Source: Magnetococcales bacterium
Lineage (GTDB): Bacteria; Pseudomonadota; Magnetococcia; Magnetococcales; Magnetaquicoccaceae
Direction of reading: 5' to 3'
NCBI GenBank assembly: GCA_015231915.1
Contig: JADGAR010000020.1
Coordinates: forward strand, 1-61,432
DNA length: 61,432 nucleotides
How positions within the stretch are numbered: the first letter of the stretch is position 1; every line of letters begins with the position of its first letter. The translations under genes were made by a program, and so were the position numbers. Below the pieces are notes generated by a model, which saw only the letters and a list, made by a program, of their open reading frames with translations, was not told the DNA's origin and made no database searches. This document shows, one piece after another, positions 26,602 through 47,535 of this stretch.

Positions 26602-29600
26602 ATGATTGCTATTAAAATAAAAAATTTTCGCAGCAGCCTGAAGACGAAAGTCCTGGCAACCATCCTGATCTCGTTGCTCGGCGTCGGATCGCTGCTGTCG
26701 GTGCAGGCCTATCTGCGCTCCCACGAACTGCTCATCGAGCGCACCGATGCCACGGTGGCGATGTTTCAAAAGATCCTCGCCGACCAGATCGTCGTGAAAG
26801 GGCGGGATCTCTCCATGGCCATGGAGACGCTGTTGCGCGACGATGCGGTGCGGGACGCCTTCGTCCGTCGCGATCGGGAGACGCTCTCCAGGCGGCTGGT
26901 GGACCATTTCCAGAAACAGTTGAAACCCCTCTATGGCATCGAACAGTTTCAATTCCATCTCCCCCCTGCCATCTGTTTTTTCCGGGTGCACAGCCCCGGC
27001 AAATTCGGTGATGACCTCTCCGAGTTCCGCAAGACCGTGGTGACCGTGAACAGCGAACGCAAGCCGGTGGTTGGCATCGAGGTGGGCAGCGCCGGTCCCG
27101 GCTTGCGGGTCGTCTATCCGATCTTCGACCAGGAGGGGCGCCATGTGGGCAGCGTCGAATACGGCAGCAGCCTGCAAAGCCTCTTTGCCAGCGTGGCCGA
27201 GATCACCGGCACCGATTTTGCCATCGGCATCAACCGCAAGGTGTTCGAAGAGGCCAAACGCTTTACGGATAAAAGCAACGATGTAGTCTGGAACGATACC
27301 CTTTTTTATGAGTTCTCATCGAAAGATGCTAAAAGTGTACTCTCTGTCCCGGAACGCGACAGCCTCCAGCAGGTGATCAAACTGGACAAGCGGCGCATCT
27401 TCAGTCGCGCCTTTCCGCTGGTCGATTACAGCAACCGGGAGATCGGACAGGTCGTCGTCTTCCAGGATATCACCGCCATGGTCGACAAGGCCCGCATCCA
27501 CCTTTTCGTGCAGATCGGCCTCATCGTGCTGGTCAGCATCCTGATTTCGTTGCTGATCTTTTGGATCCTCAACCGTTCCCTGCTTGCGCCGCTGGATCGC
27601 ATGGTCCAGGTGATGGGGGAGGTGGTCAAGGGGGATCTGACCATCCGTCTGCCCGTCTCTGCGGCTGGCAACGAACTCGACGTATTGGCCAGGAGCGCCA
27701 ACGCCATGCTGGGCGGCATGTCCACCAACGTCCGTCGCATCATGATGCAGTCCGATTCGGTGGCCGCCTGCACCAACGAACTGCTGCACATCAAAACCAC
27801 CCTGGGCGACGATGCCGGTCGGACCATCGAAGCCATGGAAGGCGCGGGGGATCGCTTCAAGCAGCTCGAAGGCGCCGTTGCCAAGATTCGTGACGACGTG
27901 GGCGGGGCCAGCGGTCATCTGGGAGAGGTCTCCACTGCCACCGAGCAGCTTTCCGTCGATATCGGCACCATCGCCGCCGCCGCCGAGGAGGCGAGCCAGA
28001 ATGTCACCACCATGGCCTCCGCCGCCGAGGAGATGACCGCGAACCTGAGTTCCGTCAACAACAGTTTGCAGGATGTCAACAACTCCGCAAGCAGTGTCGC
28101 ATCGGCGGTGGAGGAGATGACCGCCACCCTGGACGAGGTGCGCAAGCGTTGCCTTTCCGCCAGTCAGGAGTCGGATCGGGCGACCCGGCAAATCCAGGAT
28201 ACCCTCGAGGTCATGGACAAACTTTCCCTGTCCGCCGAGGAGATCGGACGGTTCATCGAACTCATCAACCAGATCGCCGACCAGACCAACATGCTGGCGC
28301 TCAATGCCTCCATCGAGGCGGCGGGCGCCGGGGAGGCCGGCAAGGGGTTTGCCGTGGTCGCCAACGAGGTGAAGGAGCTGGCCAGACAGACCGCCGATGC
28401 GACCCATCTGATCGCCGAACAGGTCAGGCAGATCCAGGACAACACCCGGGAGGTCGATTCCGCCACCAGGGAGGTCGCCCAGATCGTCGGCAACATCAAT
28501 CATTCCAACCAGGAGATCACCACGGCGGTGGATGAGCAGAGCCTTGCCATTCAGGAGATCGCCAAGGCCCTGTCCGCCGTGACCTTGGCCTCCGAGGATG
28601 TCACTCGCAACGCCATGGAACTCCAGCAGGCGGCTGACGAGGTCTCCCGCGCCGCGTCGGAGGCGGCGGCGGGGGCCAATGAAATCGCCCGCTCCTCATC
28701 CAATGCGGCGGTTTCCGCCCAGAGCGTTCTGGAACGCAACCGGGAAGCCAGCGAGCTGGTGCAATCCATTTTCGGTGAGACCCACGTCGCTTCGGCCACC
28801 GCCGAGGAGGTCTTGCAGCATGTGGAGACCGCCAACAGAATGGCCGGATACATGTCGGTTTCGGTCCATACGTTCACCATTCTCATCGACGTGGTGCAAG
28901 GGGCCATGGAGGCGTTGCGGGCCTCTCAGATCAGCTATGTCACTGCGGCCAAAACCTTCGATACCCGCATGGTGAAGGAGGGGCATCTGGCCTGGTTGCG
29001 TCGTCTGGAGGAGGCGAGCAGTGGCCGGGTCGCGGTGCGGATCGAAGATGCCGGGGATTTTCGGGGCTGCGCCTTCGGGAAATGGTATTTCGGCGAGGGA
29101 CAACAGGCGTTTGGCCAGGATCCGTTGTTCGTGGAGACCGGGGCCGTTCACGAGCAGGTCCACAAGACCGCCGTCGAAGTGTTGACAAAAGTCGCTGCCG
29201 GGGAGAGGGAGGAGGGCAAGTCTGCCCTGGATCGGTTCCGCGATCTGCGCGGTCGTTTGTTTGTGTTGTTGGATCGGCTGTACATGCTCAACACGCCGGA
29301 TGAGCAGCCGTTGATCCAGTGGGATGACTCCCTGGATGTGGGCGTGAGACAGTTCAATGAGGATCATCAACGCCTGATCGACTTTATCAACGCACTGCAC
29401 GCCGCCATGCGGGACGGTGAGGGCAAGGCCAGGATGGGCGCCATTCTGCAGGGGCTTGCCGACTTCACCAGGACCCATTTCGCCCGCGAGGAGGCGGCGA
29501 TGCAGCAGCACGGCTACGAGCGCTATCCGCAACAAAAGGAGCAGCACGTCAAACTCGTCGCCCAACTCGTGGAGCAACAGGCGGCCTTCGAGGCCGGTTC

Positions 29601-29709
29601 CACCACGGTGGCGCTGGATATGTTGAGCTTTCTCCACGATTGGCTCATCAAGCACATCAAGGGGGAGGATATGCGCTATCGACCGTTCTTCGCCGCCAGG
29701 GGGGAGTGA
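26602..29709 (+). CDS. Chemoreceptor (MCP) with Cache-type sensor, CZB and hemerythrin domains
   Basis: A 1035-aa transmembrane chemoreceptor. TM1 lies near 16-35, a periplasmic Cache-like sensor at about 36-296, TM2 near 297-322 and HAMP to about 375, followed by a long signalling coiled coil with the conserved tip [20 protein letters not shown]. After the signalling domain come a CZB zinc-binding module ([27 protein letters not shown]) and a C-terminal bacteriohemerythrin ([38 protein letters not shown]) with all expected iron ligands. Zinc/oxidant and O2 sensing would thus converge on one receptor. No CheR-docking pentapeptide is visible at the end. It is the only MCP in the window. Confidence 0.95.
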
Positions 29710-36314: not shown

Positions 36315-36384
36315 CCTTGATGATGTACTCCTTGACCAACAGAACCTCTCCGGCGGGAGGCGTGCAGAATTGCTCCCGAGTCAT
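36295..36384 (-). CDS. 29-codon frame at the cassette/pdxJ junction
   Basis: An ATG overlapping the HEPN stop (ATGA) opens a 29-codon frame ending with VEYGKC and a TGA that overlaps the pdxJ start. The last six residues are copied from the end of CheD by the flanking duplication. It is either a real tiny protein or, more likely, a leader that keeps ribosomes moving into pdxJ. No function can be assigned. Confidence 0.35.
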
Positions 36385-36779
36385 GATCCCAACACCTGTT
36401 CTGCCCAGGCCACCACGATTTCAGCCTTGTGGATGGCCTCCCAGTATTCGTCTAAAGAGACGGGTTGCCCCAAACCGGGATAGCGGGTTTCCCATGCGAA
36501 CAAGGTGAGGAATACGCTCTCCCGAACCTCCAGTGGAATTTCCATGCCTTGTTGGAGCAGTCCGGTGAGCAGCGCATCCAGATCATGGGTGTAACGGAAA
36601 ACCATCTTCTGGTGGAGATGGACCGCCTTGATCGCCTTTTCCGCTGCTTGTTGGGCGTGGAAACAGAGGTCCTCGTAATAGCCCCCTTCAGGCAGGGAGG
36701 TTCGGGCAAGGGCCAGGTCGCCTTTGGCTCTTGCCAACCAATCCGCAGGCGTTCCATGAACCCGTTTATCCGAGGGCAT
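36381..36779 (-). CDS. HEPN-domain protein (partner of the minimal nucleotidyltransferase)
   Basis: A 132-aa helical HEPN protein. The family core is [20 protein letters not shown], then [20 protein letters not shown], then [11 protein letters not shown]. The RNase motif Rx4-6H of toxic HEPN proteins is not evident, so this is the minimal, possibly non-catalytic or substrate-binding form. It starts inside the 3' end of the nucleotidyltransferase gene (14-bp overlap) after a strong GGAAAGGAG site. HEPN/MNT pairs act as toxin-antitoxin or stress modules; the specific role here is unknown. Confidence 0.85.
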
Positions 36780-37110
36780 GGTAAAGCTCCTTTCCTTCGG
36801 CCAGGGCGGGCGCGATGATCAGCGAAGGATTTTGTCCATAGTTCCGGATATCCCCTTCCGTGACAACGATAATGTCCTTTGGCATGGATAACCCACACAA
36901 GGCCATGTACACGGTTCTGGCCACTTGCCGATGATGGATGCCGTCGGGCATCACTACCAGCAGGTCCAGGTCGCTATCCGGTCCCATTTCGCCCCGGGCG
37001 GCGGATCCGAACAGGATAATGCGCAGGGGGTGCGCCACCTCAACAATGCGTCTGACCAACTCATGCAGAACGTCGGGGTGGGGGTCCGTATTGGCTCCCG
37101 GTTTCAGCAT
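36766..37110 (-). CDS. Minimal nucleotidyltransferase paired with HEPN protein
   Basis: A 114-aa MNT-type nucleotidyltransferase with an intact GSx10DxD site (G35-S36 in LFGSAARGEM, D47/D49 in SDLDLLVV). The first eight or nine residues (MLKPGANTD) copy the start of PdxJ (MLKLGVNID) because the start codon lies within the 35-bp duplication; the native N-terminus has thus been replaced or extended. The start overlaps the cheD stop by 7 bp, so translation is coupled to the chemosensory operon. The downstream HEPN gene overlaps its 3' end. Confidence 0.85.
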   Translation of the reverse strand: MLKPGANTDPHPDVLHELVRRIVEVAHPLRIILFGSAARGEMGPDSDLDLLVVMPDGIHHRQVARTVYMALCGLSMPKDIIVVTEGDIRNYGQNPSLIIAPALAEGKELYHALG

Positions 37111-37123
37111 TTCCCGTACTCCA
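37089..37123. repeat. 35-bp direct duplication, cheD-side copy
   Basis: Near-identical (33/35) to 36280-36314. It holds the last codons and stop of cheD and the start codon of the nucleotidyltransferase. Outside these 35 bp the two flanks diverge at once, as expected for a duplication produced at an insertion point. Confidence 0.85.
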
Positions 37124-37628
37124 GGGTCAGCAATTCCTGCATCGATTGACGGATCCGTTTCAATCGGATCTCGCCGGTATCGGTTTGAAAGATGAGTTGA
37201 CGCGCCCAGGGACCTCCCACATCCGACGCGGTCAGATGCAGGCGCTGGGAGCGGATCAGCGCCATGGCGGTATCCACGTTGCGCTTGCCCATGTTCAAGG
37301 AGGGCGCCACTTCGCTCTGGGGGATGGTGTTGAACATCATCGATCCACCGAAAAGCTTGACCTCCAGTTCCTGCCGGGGAAGCCCCCGCTGGTCGAAGTA
37401 GGCCAGCATGAAGTGCAGGGAACAGGAGACATAATCGCCCAGGTCGTGGCAGACCTTCAGGCCGCCCTTGTCGTGGTAACACTCCCGGTCGGGCTTGCGG
37501 GCATGACAGATGGCCCCCAGCCGCAGCCGGGCATGATGGATCGTCAACGATACGCAAGACCCCAACACCGTATGCACTTCCGCAGGCGTGGAACCGATGA
37601 ACAACTCTCCCGGGTCGAGTCTGACCAT
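37104..37628 (-). CDS. cheD: Chemoreceptor glutamine deamidase CheD
   Basis: A 174-aa CheD, which deamidates receptor glutamines and in some species binds CheC. The catalytic set fits the family: T20 and C25 in HTVLGSCVSLTI and H42 in LGAICHARKP. The start at 37628 (MVRLDPGELFIGS) is preferred to the longer frame, whose 27 extra residues are shadow sequence of the CheC-like gene. It follows the degenerate CheC-like gene by 16 bp, the common cheC-cheD pairing. The 3' end lies inside the duplicated 35-bp block. Confidence 0.92.
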   Translation of the reverse strand: MVRLDPGELFIGSTPAEVHTVLGSCVSLTIHHARLRLGAICHARKPDRECYHDKGGLKVCHDLGDYVSCSLHFMLAYFDQRGLPRQELEVKLFGGSMMFNTIPQSEVAPSLNMGKRNVDTAMALIRSQRLHLTASDVGGPWARQLIFQTDTGEIRLKRIRQSMQELLTLEYGKC

Positions 37629-37644
37629 GACCGAACGTCCTTTT

Positions 37645-38292
37645 TCAACCCAGGCAGCGGGTGATGTAGCGGGCGATTTCCACCCGCAGCGAAGGCAGAT
37701 GCCCGCCATCCAGCCAGGTCAGCAGCGAACCGGCCACCCCTTTTCCAAGCAGCTTGAAATCGATCCGCAACAACAACAGATCTTCCTGCCCGTCTCCGAC
37801 CAGGGGATGAGACGATAAATTTTCGGGACTGCCCTTGAAGTAGATGGGGTTTTCGCTGGCGATCTCCGAGGAGAAAAAGGCGCTCAGGGAGCTGACACAG
37901 GTATATAACAGGATATCCGCCGCGCTGCGGAACGCCTCCTCCTCCACCTGCATGGCCATCTCCTCCGGGATGGGGGTGCCGTACAACGCCTCCAGGAAAT
38001 GGGTCACTTCGGCGGCGCGAATCAACAGGACTGCCGTGCCGGGCACCTCCTCCCCCCCATCGAACACGAAACGATGGGGCAGATACACCATGCGAATCGA
38101 GGTGCCATACAGATCGCGCAGGAGTTGCGTGACATCCGCCTGGGGCAGCAGGGCAAAGCAGGGAAGCGAAAGGGAGACTTCCGCATCCACCATTTCGCTC
38201 AGGGTGGCCGCCGCCTTGCCAAAACTCAGGTTGAAAAGTTCCAGAAAGGCATCTTCCTCGGCATCGTTCAGGGGGAGGGCGGCGTGTTGCAT
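37645..38292 (-). CDS. CheC-like protein with one degenerate phosphatase centre
   Basis: A 215-aa CheC/CheX-superfamily protein. The first Ex2N centre is intact in LELFNLSFGKAAATLSEMV (E18, N21). In the second centre, EEEAFRSAADILLYTC, the acidic/Asn pair is replaced by Ser and Asp, so only one CheY-P phosphatase site should remain. It sits next to cheD, which CheC binds in Bacillus/Thermotoga, and may mainly act as a CheD regulator. I start at ATG 38292; ATG 38310 is in frame but lacks a ribosome site. The 5' end overlaps the stop region of the fusion gene. Confidence 0.8.
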   Translation of the reverse strand: MQHAALPLNDAEEDAFLELFNLSFGKAAATLSEMVDAEVSLSLPCFALLPQADVTQLLRDLYGTSIRMVYLPHRFVFDGGEEVPGTAVLLIRAAEVTHFLEALYGTPIPEEMAMQVEEEAFRSAADILLYTCVSSLSAFFSSEIASENPIYFKGSPENLSSHPLVGDGQEDLLLLRIDFKLLGKGVAGSLLTWLDGGHLPSLRVEIARYITRCLG

Positions 38293-38296
38293 CGGC

Positions 38297-40960
38297 CTAT
38301 CGCATGGCATGCATCAGACGCGTCCGCCGTTGGGCGACTTCCAGCATCTTCCAGTGGATGATGGGGGCATTCAGGAGTCCTTCCGCCTGGATGCACAACA
38401 GTTCACAATCCTCGGCGGCCCGGAAGCTCCAGAAATTCCGGGTGTCGTGCAGGTAGCCCTGTTCCCCGAAGAAGTCGCCGGGTTCGATCATGGACACCTC
38501 CTTGCCGTAGGCCGTGAGCATCGCCACCCGGCCCTGTGCGAGAATCCACAATGCGGGTTGTTCCCCGGTCGGGTGAATCGACTCGCCTGCCGTCACACGC
38601 ATCACTTCCATCTTTTGGGCGATCCTGGTCAGGAATACGAACGAGGTTTGTTCGCCAAACAGCCAGGTGTGCCGCAACCGCCGGACCTTTTCCAGCAAAG
38701 GCACCATCCAGTCGTACAGACCACTGTTCTCCAGGAAGATCCGGAACATGACCGACGGAATCCGCAAGACCGCGCTGTGGGAGAGGGCGCGATAGCTCCC
38801 CTCGTCGGCGACCACCTGGGGAAAGATGGTCTGCAACCCCATGAAGGAGCCGAAGCCCATGTGGTAACGGATGCCGAAATCGGCATCCAGATAGACGATG
38901 TCCCCGGAAATGGTCATCTCCACGAAGCCGTTCTCCTCGTTCTCCTTGCGGATGGAGGCCCCGGCGTTGTGGTTGACGATCGGCCCGTTGATCAGCATGC
39001 GGATGGTGTCGTCGCAGATCTCCGGAAAGAGTTGGCGCAGGTAGCAAAAGCAGCGCTGACGCCGGTAGTCCTGTTCGCCGGGGATCAGGATCTCCAGGGC
39101 GCCGAAGGTGGCCTCGGAGCCGATTTCCATCTCCTCGGTGGTCATTTCCCGCGCCTGGTGGGCCAGGATCTTCCTCCTGGAGCGATCCTGCCGGAAATCC
39201 TGGGCCTGACCATGGATCATGCCGCCGCCCACGTCGAGTTTTTTCAGGTCGGCGTGGATGAGGTAGTTGTGCTTGATTTGTTCGATGAACGCCTCCGGGA
39301 CCGCGAAGGGGCCGGGTTTGGTCATTTTGTCCAGCACGGCGAAGGAGGAGAGATCGGTCCAATGGGCATAGGTGCGATAGCCGTCGCCGTCCAGGGCGCG
39401 GAAAAGCAGCAGGTTGGTCTCCACCGGATGGGGGGAGTAGATCGGTCGTACCTCCAGGCCGCCAACGGCATTCCAGGTGTCGAATTCCAGATCGTGGATT
39501 TCGAAGAATTGTTGGAACTGCTCCTCGGTGATCGACATCAGGGCAGCGAACTTCTTGGCCACCGAGGCGCGCACCAGAGGGGTGGAGTAGTATTTCAGAC
39601 GGCGATCCGTCTGGATCAGGGCCGGCAGACCGGCGAAGTGGTCGTCATGGGCGTGGGTGTGGAAGATGCCGTCCACCTCGCTGATGTCGATGCCCAGGGC
39701 GGTCAGGACGTTCAGCACGCCGGGGATGGCGTCGATGAGATAGATGCGGCCCTGGAACATCACCACGCTGCTCATGCTGGGGCGTTCCGGGTCCCACCCG
39801 TCCCCTTCGCCGGTGTGCAGCACCGCGAAGTAATGACGCTGCACCCGGTGGAAGCCCAAAGGATAGGGGGATTTGTAGACCGCGTCCTTGGGGAGGTTGA
39901 GGTCCACCTCCGCGCTCTGGTCGCGGAAGGCGAAGCGGAAACGGTTGAAGCCGATGCGCTGAATGGTTGCGCCGTTGCGGATCTCCTGGGGATCGTCGTC
40001 CACGATCAGGGTGTCGAGAAATTCGGACGGTTCGCGCACCTTGCCGAAGGCGAATTGCAGCTTGATGCGCATCATGGTGTCGGCAGTATCCTCGTCGATG
40101 CCGGTGGCGATGATCTCGTCACGGGAGAGGCCGTAGTTGCCGCGATGAATGTAGGCCATCTGGGCCAGAACCTGATCCGTGGTGCCCATCAGCATGGGTT
40201 TGACCCCGGTGTTGTTGGGATGGCCAGGGAGGATCATCCCCTGGCGGTAGAGCATCTGCAGCACCGGGAATTCCGCCATGTTGGCAAAGCCGCCGTTTTG
40301 CACCAGCAGGTCGGAGAGCAGGATGACGTTGGGGCCGGTCTCGAAGCTCACCCCGTTCTTGATGGCCGGGGCGTTGAGGCCCTTGAGCATCAGGAGTTTC
40401 ACCACCTCGCCGGGACAGCCGCACAGGACATGCAGGCCGGCTTCCGGAATCTGCAGCCAGAACACCCCTGGCCCCACCTGAATGGTCAGCAGGTTGCCCA
40501 TGGCGGCGCGCAGTTCCTCGTGCGCCTGTTCCAACTCGCGGGTGCGTTCCTCCACCTGGCGTTCCAGTTGGCGGTTCTGATCCGCGAGGGCCAGATGGGT
40601 ACGCACCCTCGCCAGCAGCAGGTCGGGAATGATCGGCTTGTTCACGAAATCGACTGCGCCCGCCGCGAAGCCCCTGGCCTCCTCGCCGTAGGGACCGACC
40701 CCGGTGACGAAGATCACCGGGATGTTCCGGGTGGCCGGATCCTGCTTCAGGCGGCGGCACACCTCGATGCCGTCGATGTCGGGCATCATCACGTCCAGCA
40801 GGATCAGATCCGGCGGCGGCTCTGCGCTGGCACGGGCCAATGCCTGTTCGCCATTCTTGGCCACCACGATCTTGTATTGATCACGCAACAGGCTGATCAG
40901 GATGTCGATGTTGGTCTTTTCGTCATCGACGATCAGGATACGGCTGGCGTTGGCTTGCAT
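38297..40960 (-). CDS. Receiver / metallo-beta-lactamase / tandem cyclic-nucleotide-binding fusion
   Basis: An 887-aa soluble protein with a rare order. A receiver occupies 6-120 ([10 protein letters not shown], phospho-acceptor D56 in LILLDVMMPD, KP near 107), followed by a coiled coil (122-155). A poorly known domain (about 160-395) opens with VFWLQIPEAGLHVLCGCPGE. The metallo-beta-lactamase core (395-590) has HxHxDH at 436-441 (THAHDDHFAG), H511, D536 and H583, a complete two-metal set. Two cNMP-binding-like domains follow (about 625-735 and 760-870; the second has IEPGDFFGEQGYLHDTR). Phosphorylation and a cyclic nucleotide could thus control a hydrolase or diiron centre. It sits between a REC kinase and the CheC-like gene. 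Confidence 0.85.
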   Translation of the reverse strand: MQANASRILIVDDEKTNIDILISLLRDQYKIVVAKNGEQALARASAEPPPDLILLDVMMPDIDGIEVCRRLKQDPATRNIPVIFVTGVGPYGEEARGFAAGAVDFVNKPIIPDLLLARVRTHLALADQNRQLERQVEERTRELEQAHEELRAAMGNLLTIQVGPGVFWLQIPEAGLHVLCGCPGEVVKLLMLKGLNAPAIKNGVSFETGPNVILLSDLLVQNGGFANMAEFPVLQMLYRQGMILPGHPNNTGVKPMLMGTTDQVLAQMAYIHRGNYGLSRDEIIATGIDEDTADTMMRIKLQFAFGKVREPSEFLDTLIVDDDPQEIRNGATIQRIGFNRFRFAFRDQSAEVDLNLPKDAVYKSPYPLGFHRVQRHYFAVLHTGEGDGWDPERPSMSSVVMFQGRIYLIDAIPGVLNVLTALGIDISEVDGIFHTHAHDDHFAGLPALIQTDRRLKYYSTPLVRASVAKKFAALMSITEEQFQQFFEIHDLEFDTWNAVGGLEVRPIYSPHPVETNLLLFRALDGDGYRTYAHWTDLSSFAVLDKMTKPGPFAVPEAFIEQIKHNYLIHADLKKLDVGGGMIHGQAQDFRQDRSRRKILAHQAREMTTEEMEIGSEATFGALEILIPGEQDYRRQRCFCYLRQLFPEICDDTIRMLINGPIVNHNAGASIRKENEENGFVEMTISGDIVYLDADFGIRYHMGFGSFMGLQTIFPQVVADEGSYRALSHSAVLRIPSVMFRIFLENSGLYDWMVPLLEKVRRLRHTWLFGEQTSFVFLTRIAQKMEVMRVTAGESIHPTGEQPALWILAQGRVAMLTAYGKEVSMIEPGDFFGEQGYLHDTRNFWSFRAAEDCELLCIQAEGLLNAPIIHWKMLEVAQRRTRLMHAMR

Positions 40961-40973
40961 GGCTCGATGGCCC

Positions 40974-42053
40974 TCAACATGTTAATTTCATTTGAAAACA
41001 TGCTCCACGATCCGGGTTGTTGAATACCCCGATCTCCCCCCCGTGGGCGTCCACGATCTTTTTGACGATGCAAAGTCCCAGGCCCGTGCTCTTCTCGTTG
41101 CCGGTGGGACGCACGCTCAGTTTTTGAAAGGCGCCGAACAGGCGGTGCCGTTCCTCATCGGGGATGCCGGGTCCCTGATCGCTTACCCGCAACACGACGC
41201 ATCCGTCGCAAGGGTCGGTCATGACATGGATATCGGTTTGCGGAGGGGTGAACTTGATGGCATTGCTCAAAAGATTGTCCACCACCTGTGCCAGTCTGTC
41301 CGGATCGAACGATACCATGGGGGTGACGCGCAGATCGGTGAGGATGCGCACCTGTTTTCTTTCCGCCATGAACCGCATCAACTCCACCCGTTGCCCCACC
41401 AGGCGGGTCAGATCGCCCCGTTCGCGATTCAGGACAAAGCGACCGCTTTCGATGACGCTCACATCCAGCAGGTCGTTGATCATCCCGAGCATCTGCCCGG
41501 CGACGACGTTAATGGTGCGGATGAAACGCTTGCGCTCCTCGTCGTCCACCGACATGTTGAGCAGGATGTCGCTGTAGCCGCAAATCGAGTTGAGGGGATT
41601 GCGCAGATCGTGGGCGGCCATGCCGAGAAACCGGTTCTTCAACTCGTTGAGTTCCATCAGATGGCGCTTCTGAAAACTCAGCGTCAGGTGGGTCCGGATG
41701 CGTGCCAGGACCACCGCCGGACTGAAGGGCTTGCGAATGAAATCCACGCCCCCCGCCTCCAGGGCCATGGTCTCATCGCTGACTGCGTCCTTGCCGGTGA
41801 TGAAAATGATCGGGATGTCGGCGGTATCCTTTGCTGCGCGCAATCGTTTGCATACCTCATAACCATCCAGATCCGGCATCATGATGTCCAGCAGGATCAG
41901 ATCCGGGCGGGGTTCGGTATTGGCGCGTCTGAGGGCCATTTCCCCGTTTTTGGCGACCATGGTCTTGAATTCGTCCTGCAACAGTCCCACCAGGACATCG
42001 ATATTGGTCTTTTCATCATCGACGATCAGAATTCTGCCGTTTTTGTCACTCAT
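40974..42053 (-). CDS. Receiver-histidine kinase (REC-HisKA-HATPase)
   Basis: A 359-aa soluble kinase starting with a receiver ([26 protein letters not shown]) rather than a sensor, then HisKA with H-box [20 protein letters not shown] and HATPase ([34 protein letters not shown]). Its receiver is clearly a close paralogue of the receiver in the neighbouring fusion protein, pointing to a local duplication. Its start ATG at 42053 overlaps the stop of the upstream hybrid kinase by 8 bp. Phosphorylation of its own receiver likely gates kinase activity. Confidence 0.92.
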
Positions 42054-44757
42054 GTTCTTCCCCATCCGGATTCGTGCGCAATCCGGCCAGAATCGGTTGC
42101 AGGATCCGTTTCGCCTCTTCGAATTCGTAGTCATCGACGCATTCGGTCAGCGCCTGCATTTCGTTGGCCATCATTTCATGCCCCATCAATTGTCTGGCCT
42201 GATCGATCCACTCCCTGGCATCCGAATCGCCATCGGCAATCAGGGCATCCAGTTCCAGGAGGATCGCCAGCAGTCGTTCCTGGTCCACGGGGCCGGTTCG
42301 GGGAGGTGTGGCTGGACTCTCCTGTGGCGTGGGGGCGAGACCGGAGAGGGCGGTCATGACCCGTGTCACTTCCGGTTCCAGCCGCTCCAGCCGTTCGGGG
42401 ACGAGATCCCGACGGTTTTCCTTGAGCGCCTCCTCCAGCAGGGCTGCGAGTCGGTGCAGTTCCCTGGCGCCGATGGTCCCGGCCACCCCCTTGAAAGTAT
42501 GACTCAAGCGCAGGGCCACGTCCATGGTCCCGGTTTGCAGTTCGTCGCGCAGGCGGGAAACGACATCCGCGAAGCGGTCATGCACGTCCTTGAGGACCTT
42601 CCGGTAGAGCTTCCGGTTGCCGTTGACGTTGCGCAGGCCGGTGGTGATGTCGATGCCGTCCAGGGCAACGGGCAACTCGTCTGCGGGCCGGGCGGGTTCC
42701 GGTTCCAGGGTCGGGTCCGGGGCCAGGGCGCGGAGTTCGAGATGGCGGGCCATGGTGGCGAACATGACGGGGGGGTCGATGGGTTTGCTGATGTGATCGT
42801 TCATGCCATAGGAAATGCATTTTTCCCGGTCCCCGGCCATGGCGTTGGCGGTCATGGCGATGATGGGCAGATCGTGAAGTGCGGGCATGGCCCGCATGGC
42901 GCGCGTGGCGGCGTAGCCATCCATGACCGGCATCTGGACATCCATCAACACCAGGTCGAAGGGGTTTGCGCTGACCGCGTCCACCGCCTCCTGGCCATTG
43001 TCGGCAATGGATACCGCAATCCCTTCCTCCTCCAGGAGTTCCCGTGCCACCTGCTGATTGATCTCGTTGTCCTCCACCAGCAGGACCCGCACCCCGCGCC
43101 AGTCCATGCGGGGACCCGCGCGTCCGCCCTGTTCCGGGCCGCCGCGTACCTGGGATTGGGAGGCATCCTGATGCAGAATCGACAACACCGTCTCGAAGAG
43201 CACCGACAGGTTGATCGGTTTGGTGAGATAGGCATCGACCCCCGCGCCTTCTGCGGCCAGTTTGATGTCTTCCCTGGCATAGGCCGAGACCATCACGATC
43301 CGGGGGATCTTGCATCCCGGAAAGCGGCGCGCGATCTCCCTGGCGGTATGGAGGCCATCCAGTTCCTGCATTTTCCAATCCAGGAAGACCATTTTGTAGG
43401 GGTTCTTCTGGGCATGGGCACGCTCCAGTTCGAAGAGGGCCTCCTCGCCCGACGCCACGCAGGTGACATGAAAGGAGAAGGATTCGAAGGATTTCTGCAA
43501 GATCTCCCTGGCCACGGGGTTGTCGTCGGCCACCAGGACCCGCGTGCCCACCAGGTCGCGGGACGGCAGGCGGAAACGGCGGCGGTCCTTGTTTTTGATG
43601 GCGAAGACCGCCGTGAAGTGAAACGTGCTGCCCGCGTTGGCGGTGCTTTCCACCCAGATGCGGCCCTGCATCATCTCCACCAGACGCTTGCAGATGGTCA
43701 GCCCCAAACCGGTCCCGCCGAACTTGCGGGTGGTGGAGGAGTCGGCCTGGGTGAACGCCGTGAAGAGCCGTGCCATTTGTTCGGGGGTCATGCCGATGCC
43801 GCTGTCTTGCACCTCGAAATGGAGCGTCACCCGGTACTCCTCCAGTTTTTCGATGCCGACCCGGACGATGATGTTGCCTTCCCTGGTGAACTTGACCGCG
43901 TTGTTGGTGAGGTTGATCAGGATCTGCCCCAGCCGCAGGGGGTCGCCGAGCAGATTGAGGGGTACGTCCAGGGCCACGCTGAAGTTGACCTCCAGGCCTT
44001 GTTCTTCGGCCTTCAGGGCGATCAGGTTGCCCACGTTGTTGAGGACATCCTCCAGGTAGAACGGGACGCTTTCCATGGTCAGCTTGCCCGCCTCGATCTT
44101 GGAGAAGTCCAGGATGTCGTTGATGATCCCCAACAGGGACTGGGCGGAGGTGTGGACCTTGGTGATGTAGTCCCGCTGTCTCGGGGTCAGTTCGGTCTTG
44201 AGGGCCAGATGGGACATGCCGATGATGGCGTTCATCGGGGTGCGGATTTCGTGGCTCATGTTGGCCAGGAAGTCGCTCTTGGCCTTGTTGGCGTCCTGGG
44301 CGCTCTCCTTGGCGATCTTGAGTTCGTTGGCCTGGTTTCTCAGGATGTTTTCCCGGGAGACCGTGTTGGTGATGTCCTGAATCTGGATCAGGCAGAAGCG
44401 GGCGTCCCGGGCGTCGCGGATCGCCTTGATCAGCACCATCTGGCTCATTCTGGCGTCCGCATGGGTCTTTTCCGAAGCGGTATACAGGGGAAACGGGGTG
44501 GGGGTGAGCCGGTGGGAGAGCATGGTGGGGAGGCCGGAGTGCAGGGCGGTCTCCACCGCCTTGACGATGCGGGTGGCCTGCAATTCCGGAAACACCTCCA
44601 GCAGGGAGTGGCCCACGACCGTGGACGCGAGCAGGCGCGATCCCTTTTCCATCCAGTCGTTCCAGAAGTGGATCTTGAGGTCGGAATCGAGGATGATGAC
44701 CCCCACGGCACTGACAGACAGTGCCCTGGCCAGCAGCTGCGGATCCAGGTTATCCAT
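42046..44757 (-). CDS. Hybrid histidine kinase PAS-HisKA-HATPase-REC-REC-Hpt
   Basis: A 903-aa phosphorelay kinase. A PAS-like sensor (about 5-130; [17 protein letters not shown]) leads to HisKA with H-box [20 protein letters not shown], HATPase ([16 protein letters not shown]), two receivers (first [12 protein letters not shown] with [11 protein letters not shown]; second [12 protein letters not shown] with [14 protein letters not shown]) and a C-terminal Hpt ([20 protein letters not shown]). No membrane segment is seen. The Hpt could pass phosphate to the free receivers in this array: the REC-kinase, the REC-MBL fusion or the CheY-like protein. Its 3' end overlaps the REC-kinase gene. Confidence 0.94.
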
Positions 44758-44769
44758 GGTGCATCATGG

Positions 44770-45432
44770 TCAGAACGCCCCGAGTATGGTTTTCAGTTCG
44801 CGTTTGAGGATTTCCATGGAAGGTTGTGAAAACAGCAGTACCACGAAACCGCTCAAGGTGTGTTGCGCATCCTCTTCGTCGTGGGTCTTGAAATCCATCA
44901 TCAGGACAAAGGCGCGTTCGTTCTCCTCGTTTGCCTCCTCCTGCATGGCAAGACGCTGGGCGGCCAGATGCGAGGCGATGTCGAGCAGAAACGCGCCGCT
45001 GCCCTTCAGGAATTCGGCGGCATCGAATTCGAACTGGATCGACATCATCTGGGTGAAGCTCTCCAGAAAGGCGTTCAGTACCACGTTGCCCACGTCCAGG
45101 AGGGTCTCCTGTTCCAGTTCCATGAGGACTTCCAGGGGCATCTGTTCGTTAAGCAGGGTGCGGACCAGTTCCAGGCTTTCGGCCCCCGGAAAGATCAACA
45201 GGGCGGTGCCGGTCAACTCGCCAGTGAAATTCTGGCGAATGGCCACCAGTTGTTCCTCTTCTTTGGCCACCAGCATGCGCGTGGCCTCGTCGTAGGGCAC
45301 CACCTTGAGCTGCGGCAGTGACAGGAGCACTTCGTTGTTGACCATTTGACTCAAGGATGCGGCGGCCATACCCAACCCCATGTTGAAGAATTCCTTCAAC
45401 GCATCCTCTTCCATTTCGGTCAGAAAGAACAT
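44770..45432 (-). CDS. cheC: CheC-like CheY-P phosphatase with two intact centres
   Basis: A 220-aa CheC-family protein. Both phosphatase centres are readable: E14/N17 in LKEFFNMGLGMAAASLSQMV and D113/N116 in LLDVGNVVLNAFL. It should therefore dephosphorylate a receiver, most simply the CheY-like product of the adjacent gene, 27 bp upstream. I choose ATG 45432 because AAGGAG lies 9 nt upstream; ATG 45453 is also in frame. A second, degenerate CheC-like protein is encoded 7 kb further on beside cheD, suggesting division of labour. Confidence 0.85.
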   Translation of the reverse strand: MFFLTEMEEDALKEFFNMGLGMAAASLSQMVNNEVLLSLPQLKVVPYDEATRMLVAKEEEQLVAIRQNFTGELTGTALLIFPGAESLELVRTLLNEQMPLEVLMELEQETLLDVGNVVLNAFLESFTQMMSIQFEFDAAEFLKGSGAFLLDIASHLAAQRLAMQEEANEENERAFVLMMDFKTHDEEDAQHTLSGFVVLLFSQPSMEILKRELKTILGAF

Positions 45433-45459
45433 TTCTTTCTCCTTGGTCCGCATAATTGA

Positions 45460-45819
45460 TTACTTAAACTTATCAAGAATGTCCGCGATCTTGGGTTCAT
45501 CGATGGGTTTCTTGATGAAACCGATGCCCATGCTCTCCGCCCGTTGGTGCATCCGCTCCTGAATGTTGGCCGTCACCAGGAAGACCGCCAGGGAGGGGAA
45601 GCGGGTCAGCAGTTTTTCGGACAGCTCCAGACCGTTCATTCCCGGCATGTTGAAGTCGATCAAAGCCACGTCGAGGGCAGGCGGGGCCAGAGCCAGGGCC
45701 TCGTCGCCATCCTTTGCTTCCACCAGGCCCCAATCCGGGAAACGGGTGGTGAAGATTTTGCGTGCCATCATGCGCGCCAGACTGCTGTCATCGACGATCA
45801 TCGCCGTTTTGTTCGCCAT
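45460..45819 (-). CDS. CheY-like response regulator
   Basis: A 119-aa single receiver: acidic pocket AMIVDDSSLAR, phospho-acceptor in VALIDFNMPGMNGLEL and Lys in GFIKKPIDE. It starts at ATG 45819 after GGAGAGAAG, 33 bp below the CheA-like gene and just before cheC. It is the natural target of that CheA and substrate of that CheC, though whether it acts on flagella, pili or another output is not visible. Confidence 0.9.
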   Translation of the reverse strand: MANKTAMIVDDSSLARMMARKIFTTRFPDWGLVEAKDGDEALALAPPALDVALIDFNMPGMNGLELSEKLLTRFPSLAVFLVTANIQERMHQRAESMGIGFIKKPIDEPKIADILDKFK

Positions 45820-45852: not shown

Positions 45853-47535
45853 CTATTGTTTAATCAGTTCCGCCACGTTCAAAAGGAAGGAAACCGAACC
45901 GTCCGGCATCACCGCGCTTCCCGCCAGGATCGGGATATTGGCGAAGATCCGGTTCAAGGGTTTGATGACCAGGCTGGCCGGCTCCTTGATGCCATCCACG
46001 GCCAGACCGAAGCAGCTCTCCTCGGACTGCAACACCACGATGTGCAACGCCGGCATGGCCAGGACCTCCGGCATGCCGATGGTCGCCGACTCCCCGTCCG
46101 TCCGCAGGGTGAGCTGGTCCGAAAGGAAAATCAGCGGGAAGAGTCGCTCCCGCACCCGCACCATCGGGGCTTGCATTTTGCCCTCGACCTGTGTCGCCAC
46201 CTCCTGGCCGTAATAGGAGATCAACTCGACGATGTTGACCTGGGGCACGGCATAGGTCTCGTCCCCGTCGGTGACCAGCAGCACCGGCACGATGGCCATG
46301 GTCTGGGGGATCCGCAGCCGGAAGCGGGACCCCTGTCCGGCCTGACTGGTGATGGTGATGGTCCCGCCCAGTTTGTCGATGGCGGCTTGCACCACATCCA
46401 TGCCGGTTCCCCGCCCGGAGATCTTGCTGATCTGCTCGGCGGTGGAAAAACCGGGGGCCATGATGAGACGCATGATCTCTCCTTCCGACATCTCCCGCGC
46501 CTGCTCCGGGGTGATCAGGTTGCGTTCCAGGGCCTTGCTGCGCACCCGGTCCACGTCGATCCCCCGGCCATCGTCGGTGATCTCCAGATAGATCTGCCCC
46601 TGTTTCTGCGCGGCTGTGAGGGTGATATGTCCGATGGGGGGTTTCCCCAGGGCCACCCGTTCCTCCGGAGACTCGATGCCATGATCCACCGCGTTGCGGA
46701 TGAGATGTCCCAGGACCTCCTTGATGGAAATCAGGACATTGCGGTCCACCTCGGTCTCTTCGCCCACCAGATCGAGGAGCACCTTTTTGCGGGTTTCCAC
46801 CGCCAGATCCCGCACCAGCCGGTGGTAGGTCTCCATGGTGCGGCCAATGGGCTGCAACCGGTACTGGAGCACCTCTTCCTGCAGCGTATAAATCTGTTGT
46901 CCCAGGTTCTCCAGGGCCTGATCCAGCAGGTTGCGCCTGGAGGTGAGCGCGTATTTCAGTTGGTTGAAGCTCGCCCCCAGTTCCCCGACATAACTCATCA
47001 GGGCATCCAGCCGTTCCACCGAGAGACGGATCGACTCCTGCCGGGCAGCGGTCGGCGGCTCGGCATCGTTCCGGAACGGGGGTGCGGCTTCCGTCGGCGG
47101 TTCGGCGGGAGTCGGTTCGCTGTGGCTCCGGTTGAGTTCCGCCTCTCCCTGGAACTCCTCCAACTGGAAAATCAGCGCGGCGAAATCGTCCTCGCCCTCG
47201 GCCCCGTTTCCCTCGATGACCACCAGGGAACCCCGCACCGCGTCCAGCACCCCCAGCAACTGGTTGCCGATCATCTGGTCCAACACCAGTCTGCCTTCCC
47301 GCAGCAGGTCCAACAGGGATTCGGCGGCATGGGTCAGCCCCTCCAGCCGCTCGAAGCCCATCATCCGGCAGTTCCCCTTGACGGTATGCATGTCCCGGAA
47401 CACCGAATTGAGGATCTCGCGATTTTCCGGCGTGGTCTCCAGTTGCAGGAGTCCCCGCTCGATACGGTCCAGGGCTTCCCGGTTTTCCGAGAAGAACTCC
47501 TGCATGAGGGCTGCCTGTGTGGCTTCGTCGAGCAT
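45853..47535 (-). CDS. CheA-family sensor kinase
   Basis: A 560-aa CheA-like kinase: Hpt (H50 in RDMHTVKGNCRMMGFERL), a short Pro-rich linker, dimerisation domain, HATPase (LGHLIRNAVDHGIESPEER, DDGRGIDVDRVRS, GFSTAEQISKISGRGTGMDV) and a C-terminal CheW domain. It lacks an obvious P2 (CheY/CheB-docking) domain, making it shorter than chemotaxis CheA of about 650-700 aa. It is encoded 5 bp after the YhdP-like gene and leads the CheY-CheC-kinase array. With no CheR, CheB or MCP beside it, it may serve an alternative cellular function pathway. Confidence 0.93.
   Translation of the reverse strand: MLDEATQAALMQEFFSENREALDRIERGLLQLETTPENREILNSVFRDMHTVKGNCRMMGFERLEGLTHAAESLLDLLREGRLVLDQMIGNQLLGVLDAVRGSLVVIEGNGAEGEDDFAALIFQLEEFQGEAELNRSHSEPTPAEPPTEAAPPFRNDAEPPTAARQESIRLSVERLDALMSYVGELGASFNQLKYALTSRRNLLDQALENLGQQIYTLQEEVLQYRLQPIGRTMETYHRLVRDLAVETRKKVLLDLVGEETEVDRNVLISIKEVLGHLIRNAVDHGIESPEERVALGKPPIGHITLTAAQKQGQIYLEITDDGRGIDVDRVRSKALERNLITPEQAREMSEGEIMRLIMAPGFSTAEQISKISGRGTGMDVVQAAIDKLGGTITITSQAGQGSRFRLRIPQTMAIVPVLLVTDGDETYAVPQVNIVELISYYGQEVATQVEGKMQAPMVRVRERLFPLIFLSDQLTLRTDGESATIGMPEVLAMPALHIVVLQSEESCFGLAVDGIKEPASLVIKPLNRIFANIPILAGSAVMPDGSVSFLLNVAELIKQ

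Follow-up and report, generated by a model that had tools for sequence, protein, structure and literature searches.

Two cytosolic phosphodiesterases of Dictyostelium, GbpA and GbpB, consist of a metallo-beta-lactamase (MBL) catalytic domain followed by two cyclic-nucleotide-binding (cNB) domains; they belong to class IIb and are activated by cyclic nucleotides (cGMP/cAMP) (PMC11988041). In Dictyostelium RegA, a receiver lies upstream of a cyclic-nucleotide phosphodiesterase (PDE) and a phosphorelay activates the enzyme (PMC11988041). Apyc1, YhfI and similar MBL enzymes hydrolyze cyclic mononucleotides, and the HxHxDH site of Apyc1 holds two zinc ions (PMC9117128).

We analyzed a stretch of 61,432 nucleotides from a Magnetococcales bacterium (contig JADGAR010000020.1; the window) and found features of these systems joined in one gene product (Table 1). 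As judged from the described layout, the protein resembles GbpA and GbpB in carrying two cNB domains behind an MBL domain; however, no receiver is described in GbpA and GbpB, and these are activated by cyclic nucleotides, whereas the cNB domains of the window protein are without the phosphate-binding Arg. With RegA it shares a receiver placed ahead of a phosphodiesterase, which in the window protein is predicted, but the class I catalytic domain of RegA is unrelated to the MBL and RegA is without cNB domains. Apyc1 and YhfI provided the closest solved fold to the window MBL in the searches made, and the HxHxDH-type site is common to both sides, although those enzymes are homodimers of a single domain and lack the receiver, the N domain and the cNB domains.

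Two further groups bear on the comparison. Long-form tRNase Z combines a degenerate and an active MBL in one chain, a tandem that a weak model suggests for the window protein as well; RNase Z is the best-scoring family for its MBL, but the protein lies far under the family cut-off and carries signaling fusions. ODP and the flavodiiron proteins have the diiron motif HxExDH. ODP resembles the window protein in placing an MBL fold in a chemotaxis setting, but the window motif is HxHxDH, and ODP is not known to carry cNB domains. Among open-licence papers, no account of a receiver-MBL-cNB arrangement was found. The initial annotation had pointed to no characterized protein with this domain order, which holds for the receiver fusion and the N domain but not for the MBL-cNB-cNB part, characterized in GbpA and GbpB (PMC11988041). 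What is new is the fusion of receivers and other inputs to a conserved, unnamed core, together with the N domain, possibly a pseudo-MBL.

Table 1. Features of the fusion gene and of the adjacent che-like genes in the window
Feature	Position	Strand	Basis
REC-linker-N domain-MBL-cNB1-cNB2 protein, 887 aa, ATG start	38297..40960	minus	ORF and homologues
Receiver, residues 8-120 (D12, D13, D56, T86, K108)	40601..40939	minus	Pfam 2.5e-25
Linker, residues 125-155, charged, helical, coiled-coil-like	40496..40588	minus	sequence reading only
N domain, residues 156-374, without sequence family	39839..40495	minus	low-confidence model
Putative catalytic MBL domain, residues 375-626	39083..39838	minus	Pfam, NCBIfam, structural alignment
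HxHxDH metal motif, H436-H441	39638..39655	minus	invariant in 49 homologues
Metal ligand H511	39428..39430	minus	invariant in 49 homologues
Metal ligand D536, bridging role by superfamily analogy	39353..39355	minus	invariant in 49 homologues
Metal ligand H583	39212..39214	minus	invariant in 49 homologues
cNB-like domain 1 (cNB1), residues 640-750, degenerate	38711..39043	minus	profile-profile match to cNB2
cNB-like domain 2 (cNB2), residues 755-885, phosphate-binding Arg replaced (N842)	38306..38698	minus	Pfam, model
CheA-like kinase (Hpt, dimer, HATPase, CheW)	45853..47535	minus	Pfam
CheY-like single receiver	45460..45819	minus	Pfam
CheC/X-like protein with phosphatase signature	44770..45453	minus	weak Pfam CheC 0.0016 and signature
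Hybrid kinase PAS-HisKA-HATPase-REC-REC-Hpt	42046..44757	minus	Pfam
Receiver-histidine kinase, 53% receiver identity to fusion	40974..42134	minus	Pfam and genome comparison
Second CheC-like protein	37645..38310	minus	30% identity to first, E 1e-19; signature
CheD	37104..37709	minus	Pfam 1.9e-18

An indivisible core behind the receiver

The fusion of a receiver, the N domain, an MBL and two cNB-like domains in a single protein is real. This confirmed the initial annotation, which had left the strand (minus) unstated, and the residues named there (D56; HxHxDH at 436-441, H511, D536 and H583) proved correct on a letter-by-letter check. Pfam matches cover the receiver (8-120), Lactamase_B_2 (407-538) and cNMP_binding (788-864). 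The minus-strand frame was taken as the gene because homologues match it at 44-93% identity over the core, and an overlapping plus-strand ORF of 1059 aa was ruled out on the same grounds. Homologues likewise excluded a spurious ORF of a GC-rich genome; stops are absent and the ligands intact, ruling out a pseudogene.

We define the core as everything after the receiver and linker (residues ~155 to 887). It is one indivisible unit, unnamed in the family libraries searched and extremely conserved. An AlphaFold2 model of the core (737 aa, 6-row alignment) reached a mean pLDDT of 46.9, with cNB2 alone confident and the MBL intermediate, and we therefore make no claims on inter-domain packing from it.

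The N domain gave no relevant sequence match in Pfam, NCBIfam or the PDB (profile against PDB, members against Pfam). It is nevertheless as conserved as the MBL domain: among 49 homologues, residues 225-249 average 90% identity and H247-P248-N249-N250-T251-G252 are nearly invariant. The surrounding PxHPNNTG motif (residues 245-252, ~40205-40228, minus strand) is conserved above what is expected of a dead domain and might mark an additional functional site. Even ahead of the fold search, the succession of predicted strands and helices hinted at an MBL fold. With the AlphaFold2 model of the domain (mean pLDDT 51, pTM 0.50), Foldseek alone returned no significant match, while rows 1-39 of the VIA-align results were all MBL folds, the best with Z 6.0 over 116 residues at 4.1 A; a Z below 8 was not taken as proof of fold. 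Comparison of the N-domain profile with the protein's own MBL profile in hhalign was negative, at a low alignment diversity (Neff ~2.4). We put at about even odds the reading, drawn from the model, that the N domain is a degenerate MBL that no longer has the HxHxDH ligands and probably packs against the active MBL.

Used alone as a query with an E limit of 0.01, the N domain recovered the same 55 + 5 genomes as the core, at ~1e-98 or better, and the matches sit in core-length frames, apart from two fragmentary ones and a small number of shorter frames. Since matches are all-or-none with the core, the domain has no detectable existence outside it in ~790 genomes. Profile searches of the two stretches singled out in the initial annotation differed in outcome: the N domain, within 160-395, found no family, and within 600-887 cNB2 has a Pfam match while cNB1 was recognized only by profile-profile comparison.

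Metal site and cNB-like domains

The MBL part matches Pfam Lactamase_B_2 above the family cut-off (E 8e-10 to 7.7e-11). It has the HxHxDH motif and the later H, D and H of MBL superfamily hydrolases, and all seven ligands (H436, H438, D440, H441, H511, D536 and H583) are invariant in 49 homologues; the HxExDH motif of ODP and flavodiiron proteins is absent, HxHxDH being present in all 49. Among NCBIfam models, those of RNase Z were best (4e-11) and a cyclic-nucleotide-degrading PDE model weaker (0.013), with scores far under the cut-offs of all curated MBL subfamilies: the RNase Z model TIGR02651 gave 42.4 bits against 292.95, and the Apyc1 model Pfam PF23023 gave 19.5 bits against 50. Solved-structure relatives found by sequence include Apyc1 and ELAC1, and the modeled MBL part aligns with Apyc1 (7u2r) with Z 12.4 over 122 residues at 2.2 A. 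Sequence and model together favor an active MBL of the RNase Z/Apyc1/phosphodiesterase-like type. Of the two options first proposed, a metallo-hydrolase or a redox center, the hydrolase is favored because of this MBL type, and the redox center less so.

Class III cyclase domains are found in 31/31 relatives and give 8 matches in the window genome, so cyclic nucleotides are probably present. With 27 cNMP-binding domain matches besides, this 4.0-Mb genome appears heavy in cyclic-nucleotide signaling.

Of the two cNB-like domains, cNB2 matches Pfam cNMP_binding at residues 788-864 (E 3e-14 to 9e-14), and its model, with pLDDT mostly 72-85, aligns to the M. loti CNBD, a channel domain, with Z 12.9. 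The initial annotation had made its reading depend on these regions modeling as cNB folds, which was borne out for cNB2. cNB1 (~640-750) has no Pfam match; its family profile is related to that of cNB2 with 97% probability in hhalign (E 7e-11 for a single comparison). The PKA-like phosphate-binding cassette reads G-E...P-R-A-A-T. Neither window domain has the Arg at position E+9 of this canonical cassette, and among the 49 homologues it occurs in 1/49 cNB1 and 4/49 cNB2 domains, there outside its usual context; the position is mostly S, C, N, P or G (N842 in the window cNB2). Alignment with Plasmodium PKG gives the same column for the Arg, and it is retained by typical cNB domains elsewhere in the genome, e.g. 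GEMAMFADFPRVATV and GEIALLQDTVRTANI. The conserved cassette Glu is kept by cNB2 in 47/49 homologues; in cNB1 of the receiver clade it is also lost. With the phosphate-binding Arg missing from both domains, cyclic-nucleotide sensing or control by them appears doubtful; they may bind another ligand or act as a scaffold.

Receiver, gene neighborhood and distribution

The window protein has the receiver fold, D12, D13, D56, a T or S at position 86 and K108, as expected of a response regulator. D12, D13, D56 and K108 are identical in 22/22 aligned receiver rows (window + 21 loci), and T86 varies among T, S and A. On its residues, the phosphorylation site is complete and predicted to be competent.

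Along the minus strand, the gene order is CheA-like kinase, CheY, CheC-like protein, hybrid kinase, receiver-kinase, fusion, CheC-like protein and CheD; the last 14 bases of the fusion gene are shared with the beginning of the second CheC-like gene. The phosphatase signature [DS]x3Ex2Nx22P is present in each of the two CheC-like proteins, although Pfam missed the second. The closest non-core receiver of the genome to that of the fusion is in the adjacent receiver-kinase (53% identity), so the fusion does stand between a receiver-kinase with a closely paralogous receiver and a CheC-like protein, as first described. The suggested recurrence beside CheC and hybrid kinases held within the genus, where the cluster is retained, as far as the stretches reach, at five other loci (L009, L011, G034, G041 and G177), but failed outside it: in the loci examined there, the receiver-core genes adjoin unrelated genes. 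A CheC neighborhood conserved across genomes was accordingly rejected, and the che connection is genus-level only.

Elsewhere in the window, a HEPN protein (36381-36779, minus; Pfam 2.4e-24) adjoins a nucleotidyltransferase-type ORF (36766-37557, minus; Pfam 1.9e-09), and this HEPN/MNT-like pair sits between pdxJ and cheD. A chemoreceptor-type MCP of 1035 aa (26602-29709, plus) combines dCache_3, HAMP, MCP signal, zinc-binding CZB and C-terminal hemerythrin domains in one chain.

The core is present in 31/31 sampled Magnetococcales relatives, with 1-6 copies each, and contigs labeled Magnetococcales in the database hold copies 77-93% identical. It was found in 55/398 genomes of the phylum sample and in 5/395 of the sample from the phylum of L013, a locus of a deltaproteobacterial MAG at which the core is joined to hemerythrin (bacteriohemerythrin 2.4e-32). 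The window genome has three copies: one behind the receiver, one at L002 and one at L003 with a C-terminal hemerythrin domain. At L002 (571-3864), the core is preceded by SBP_bac_3, a solute-binding domain of extracellular type, and by a likely membrane helix recognized by reading the sequence, which gives a periplasmic-sensor form. A 1041-aa ORF at L035 (N domain 2239-2910, minus) is a receiver-core-hemerythrin fusion, and in the 878-aa ORF at L051 the extension before the core reads like a degenerate receiver.

In a midpoint-rooted tree of 46 sequences, a hemerythrin clade spanning phyla was separated from a receiver/solute-binding clade, with 100/100 support for each; the latter has so far been found only in the Magnetococcales sample. 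The receiver cores need one change on the tree, and L035 sits within the hemerythrin clade (100/98). Fusion of a receiver to the core thus took place two or more times, which rules out a single lineage-specific accident. No relatives turned up in collections of plasmids, phages and viral contigs, so nothing in those collections points to carriage by mobile elements or viruses.

Proposed mechanism and alternatives

We propose, giving it an even chance, that the protein is a response regulator with a binuclear-metal phosphodiesterase output, phospho-control by the che cluster, a pseudo-dimer core and non-classical cNB domains. One of the cluster's histidine kinases (CheA, the hybrid kinase or the receiver-kinase next to the fusion) would phosphorylate D56, the CheC-like proteins would remove the phosphate, and the helical linker would pass the change in the receiver to the core. 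There, the degenerate, MBL-like N domain would pack on the active MBL, supplying one half of a pseudo-dimer from within the chain, and the degenerate cNB pair would be allosteric or scaffold parts, not classical cAMP/cGMP sensors. The output would be of the RNase Z/Apyc1/class II PDE type, with a 3',5'-cyclic mononucleotide as the most likely substrate. Catalysis, substrate, direction of regulation, the acting kinase and the way the N domain folds and packs are what we infer here; phospho-control of a metallo-hydrolase is likely. A phosphodiesterase is favored, rather than shown, by the RNase Z and Apyc1 matches, the cyclic-mononucleotide chemistry of Apyc1 and the cyclases of the genome. The proposal is strengthened by precedent, since an MBL with two cNB domains is a proven cyclic-nucleotide PDE layout (GbpA/GbpB) and a receiver with a PDE is proven in RegA. 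The invariant metal ligands, the receiver phosphosite kept in the homologues checked, the che-like order at five other loci of the genus and the two flanking CheC signatures also speak for it. Against it, MBL folds span many chemistries, the scores lie far under all curated MBL subfamily cut-offs, the neighbors outside the genus are unrelated, and the N-domain fold comes from a model with a mean pLDDT of 51 and a negative hhalign comparison.

The cNB domains might instead accommodate a cyclic nucleotide in an altered pocket. The protein would then be a dual-input enzyme, responding to phosphate and cNMP, and, its additional receiver aside, a bacterial counterpart of GbpA/GbpB. The shared MBL-cNB-cNB order, the cNB fold modeled for cNB2 and its Glu, kept in 47/49, agree with this, but the cassette motifs speak against activation by ligand in the GbpA/GbpB manner: an E+9 Arg in just 1/49 cNB1 and 4/49 cNB2 domains, set against its retention in the genome's typical cNB domains, and loss of the Glu in receiver-clade cNB1 leave this reading unlikely. 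The initial annotation had a phosphorelay and a cyclic nucleotide both acting on the metal center; a predicted competent receiver on a hydrolase-like core fits the former, but the missing Arg context weakens the latter.

Two other readings concern the chemistry, and we consider both improbable. RNA or other phosphodiesters might be cleaved under signaling control in the manner of long-form tRNase Z. In favor are the top rank of RNase Z among the family models (4e-11), the possible tandem of degenerate and active MBL, which recalls the long form, and the Integrator and RNase J/Z chains that VIA-align matched to the N-domain model. However, the RNase Z model scores 42 bits where its cut-off is 293, and the fused domains are all signaling or sensor domains, none RNA-binding. 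Alternatively, the MBL site could be an ODP-like diiron oxygen or redox sensor, read or set by the receiver and kinases, as the C-terminal hemerythrin of the sister clade, the chemotaxis-like cluster and the microaerophilic life of magnetotactic-type bacteria might suggest; the ligands, however, are HxHxDH and not HxExDH, the best matches of the MBL part are hydrolases, and hemerythrin is missing from the receiver clade.

A broader reading, possible although we lean against it, is a new family of signaling enzymes in which a dead and an active MBL form a pseudo-dimer, the cNB-like domains detect a signal that is not a cyclic nucleotide, and the core is combined, depending on lineage, with receivers, with solute sensors of the periplasm or with hemerythrin. 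If that is true, the chemotaxis-like array of the genus would directly control a nucleotide second messenger.

The core occurs in all sampled relatives, and 220 of its residues form a domain outside any known family, so that annotating it would cover a whole set of genes. If the proposed response-regulator mechanism is correct, the window protein would be a phosphorelay-controlled bacterial MBL phosphodiesterase uniting features that in Dictyostelium are split between RegA and GbpA/B, and in magnetotactic-type bacteria it would connect the turnover of cyclic nucleotides with chemotaxis-type arrays.
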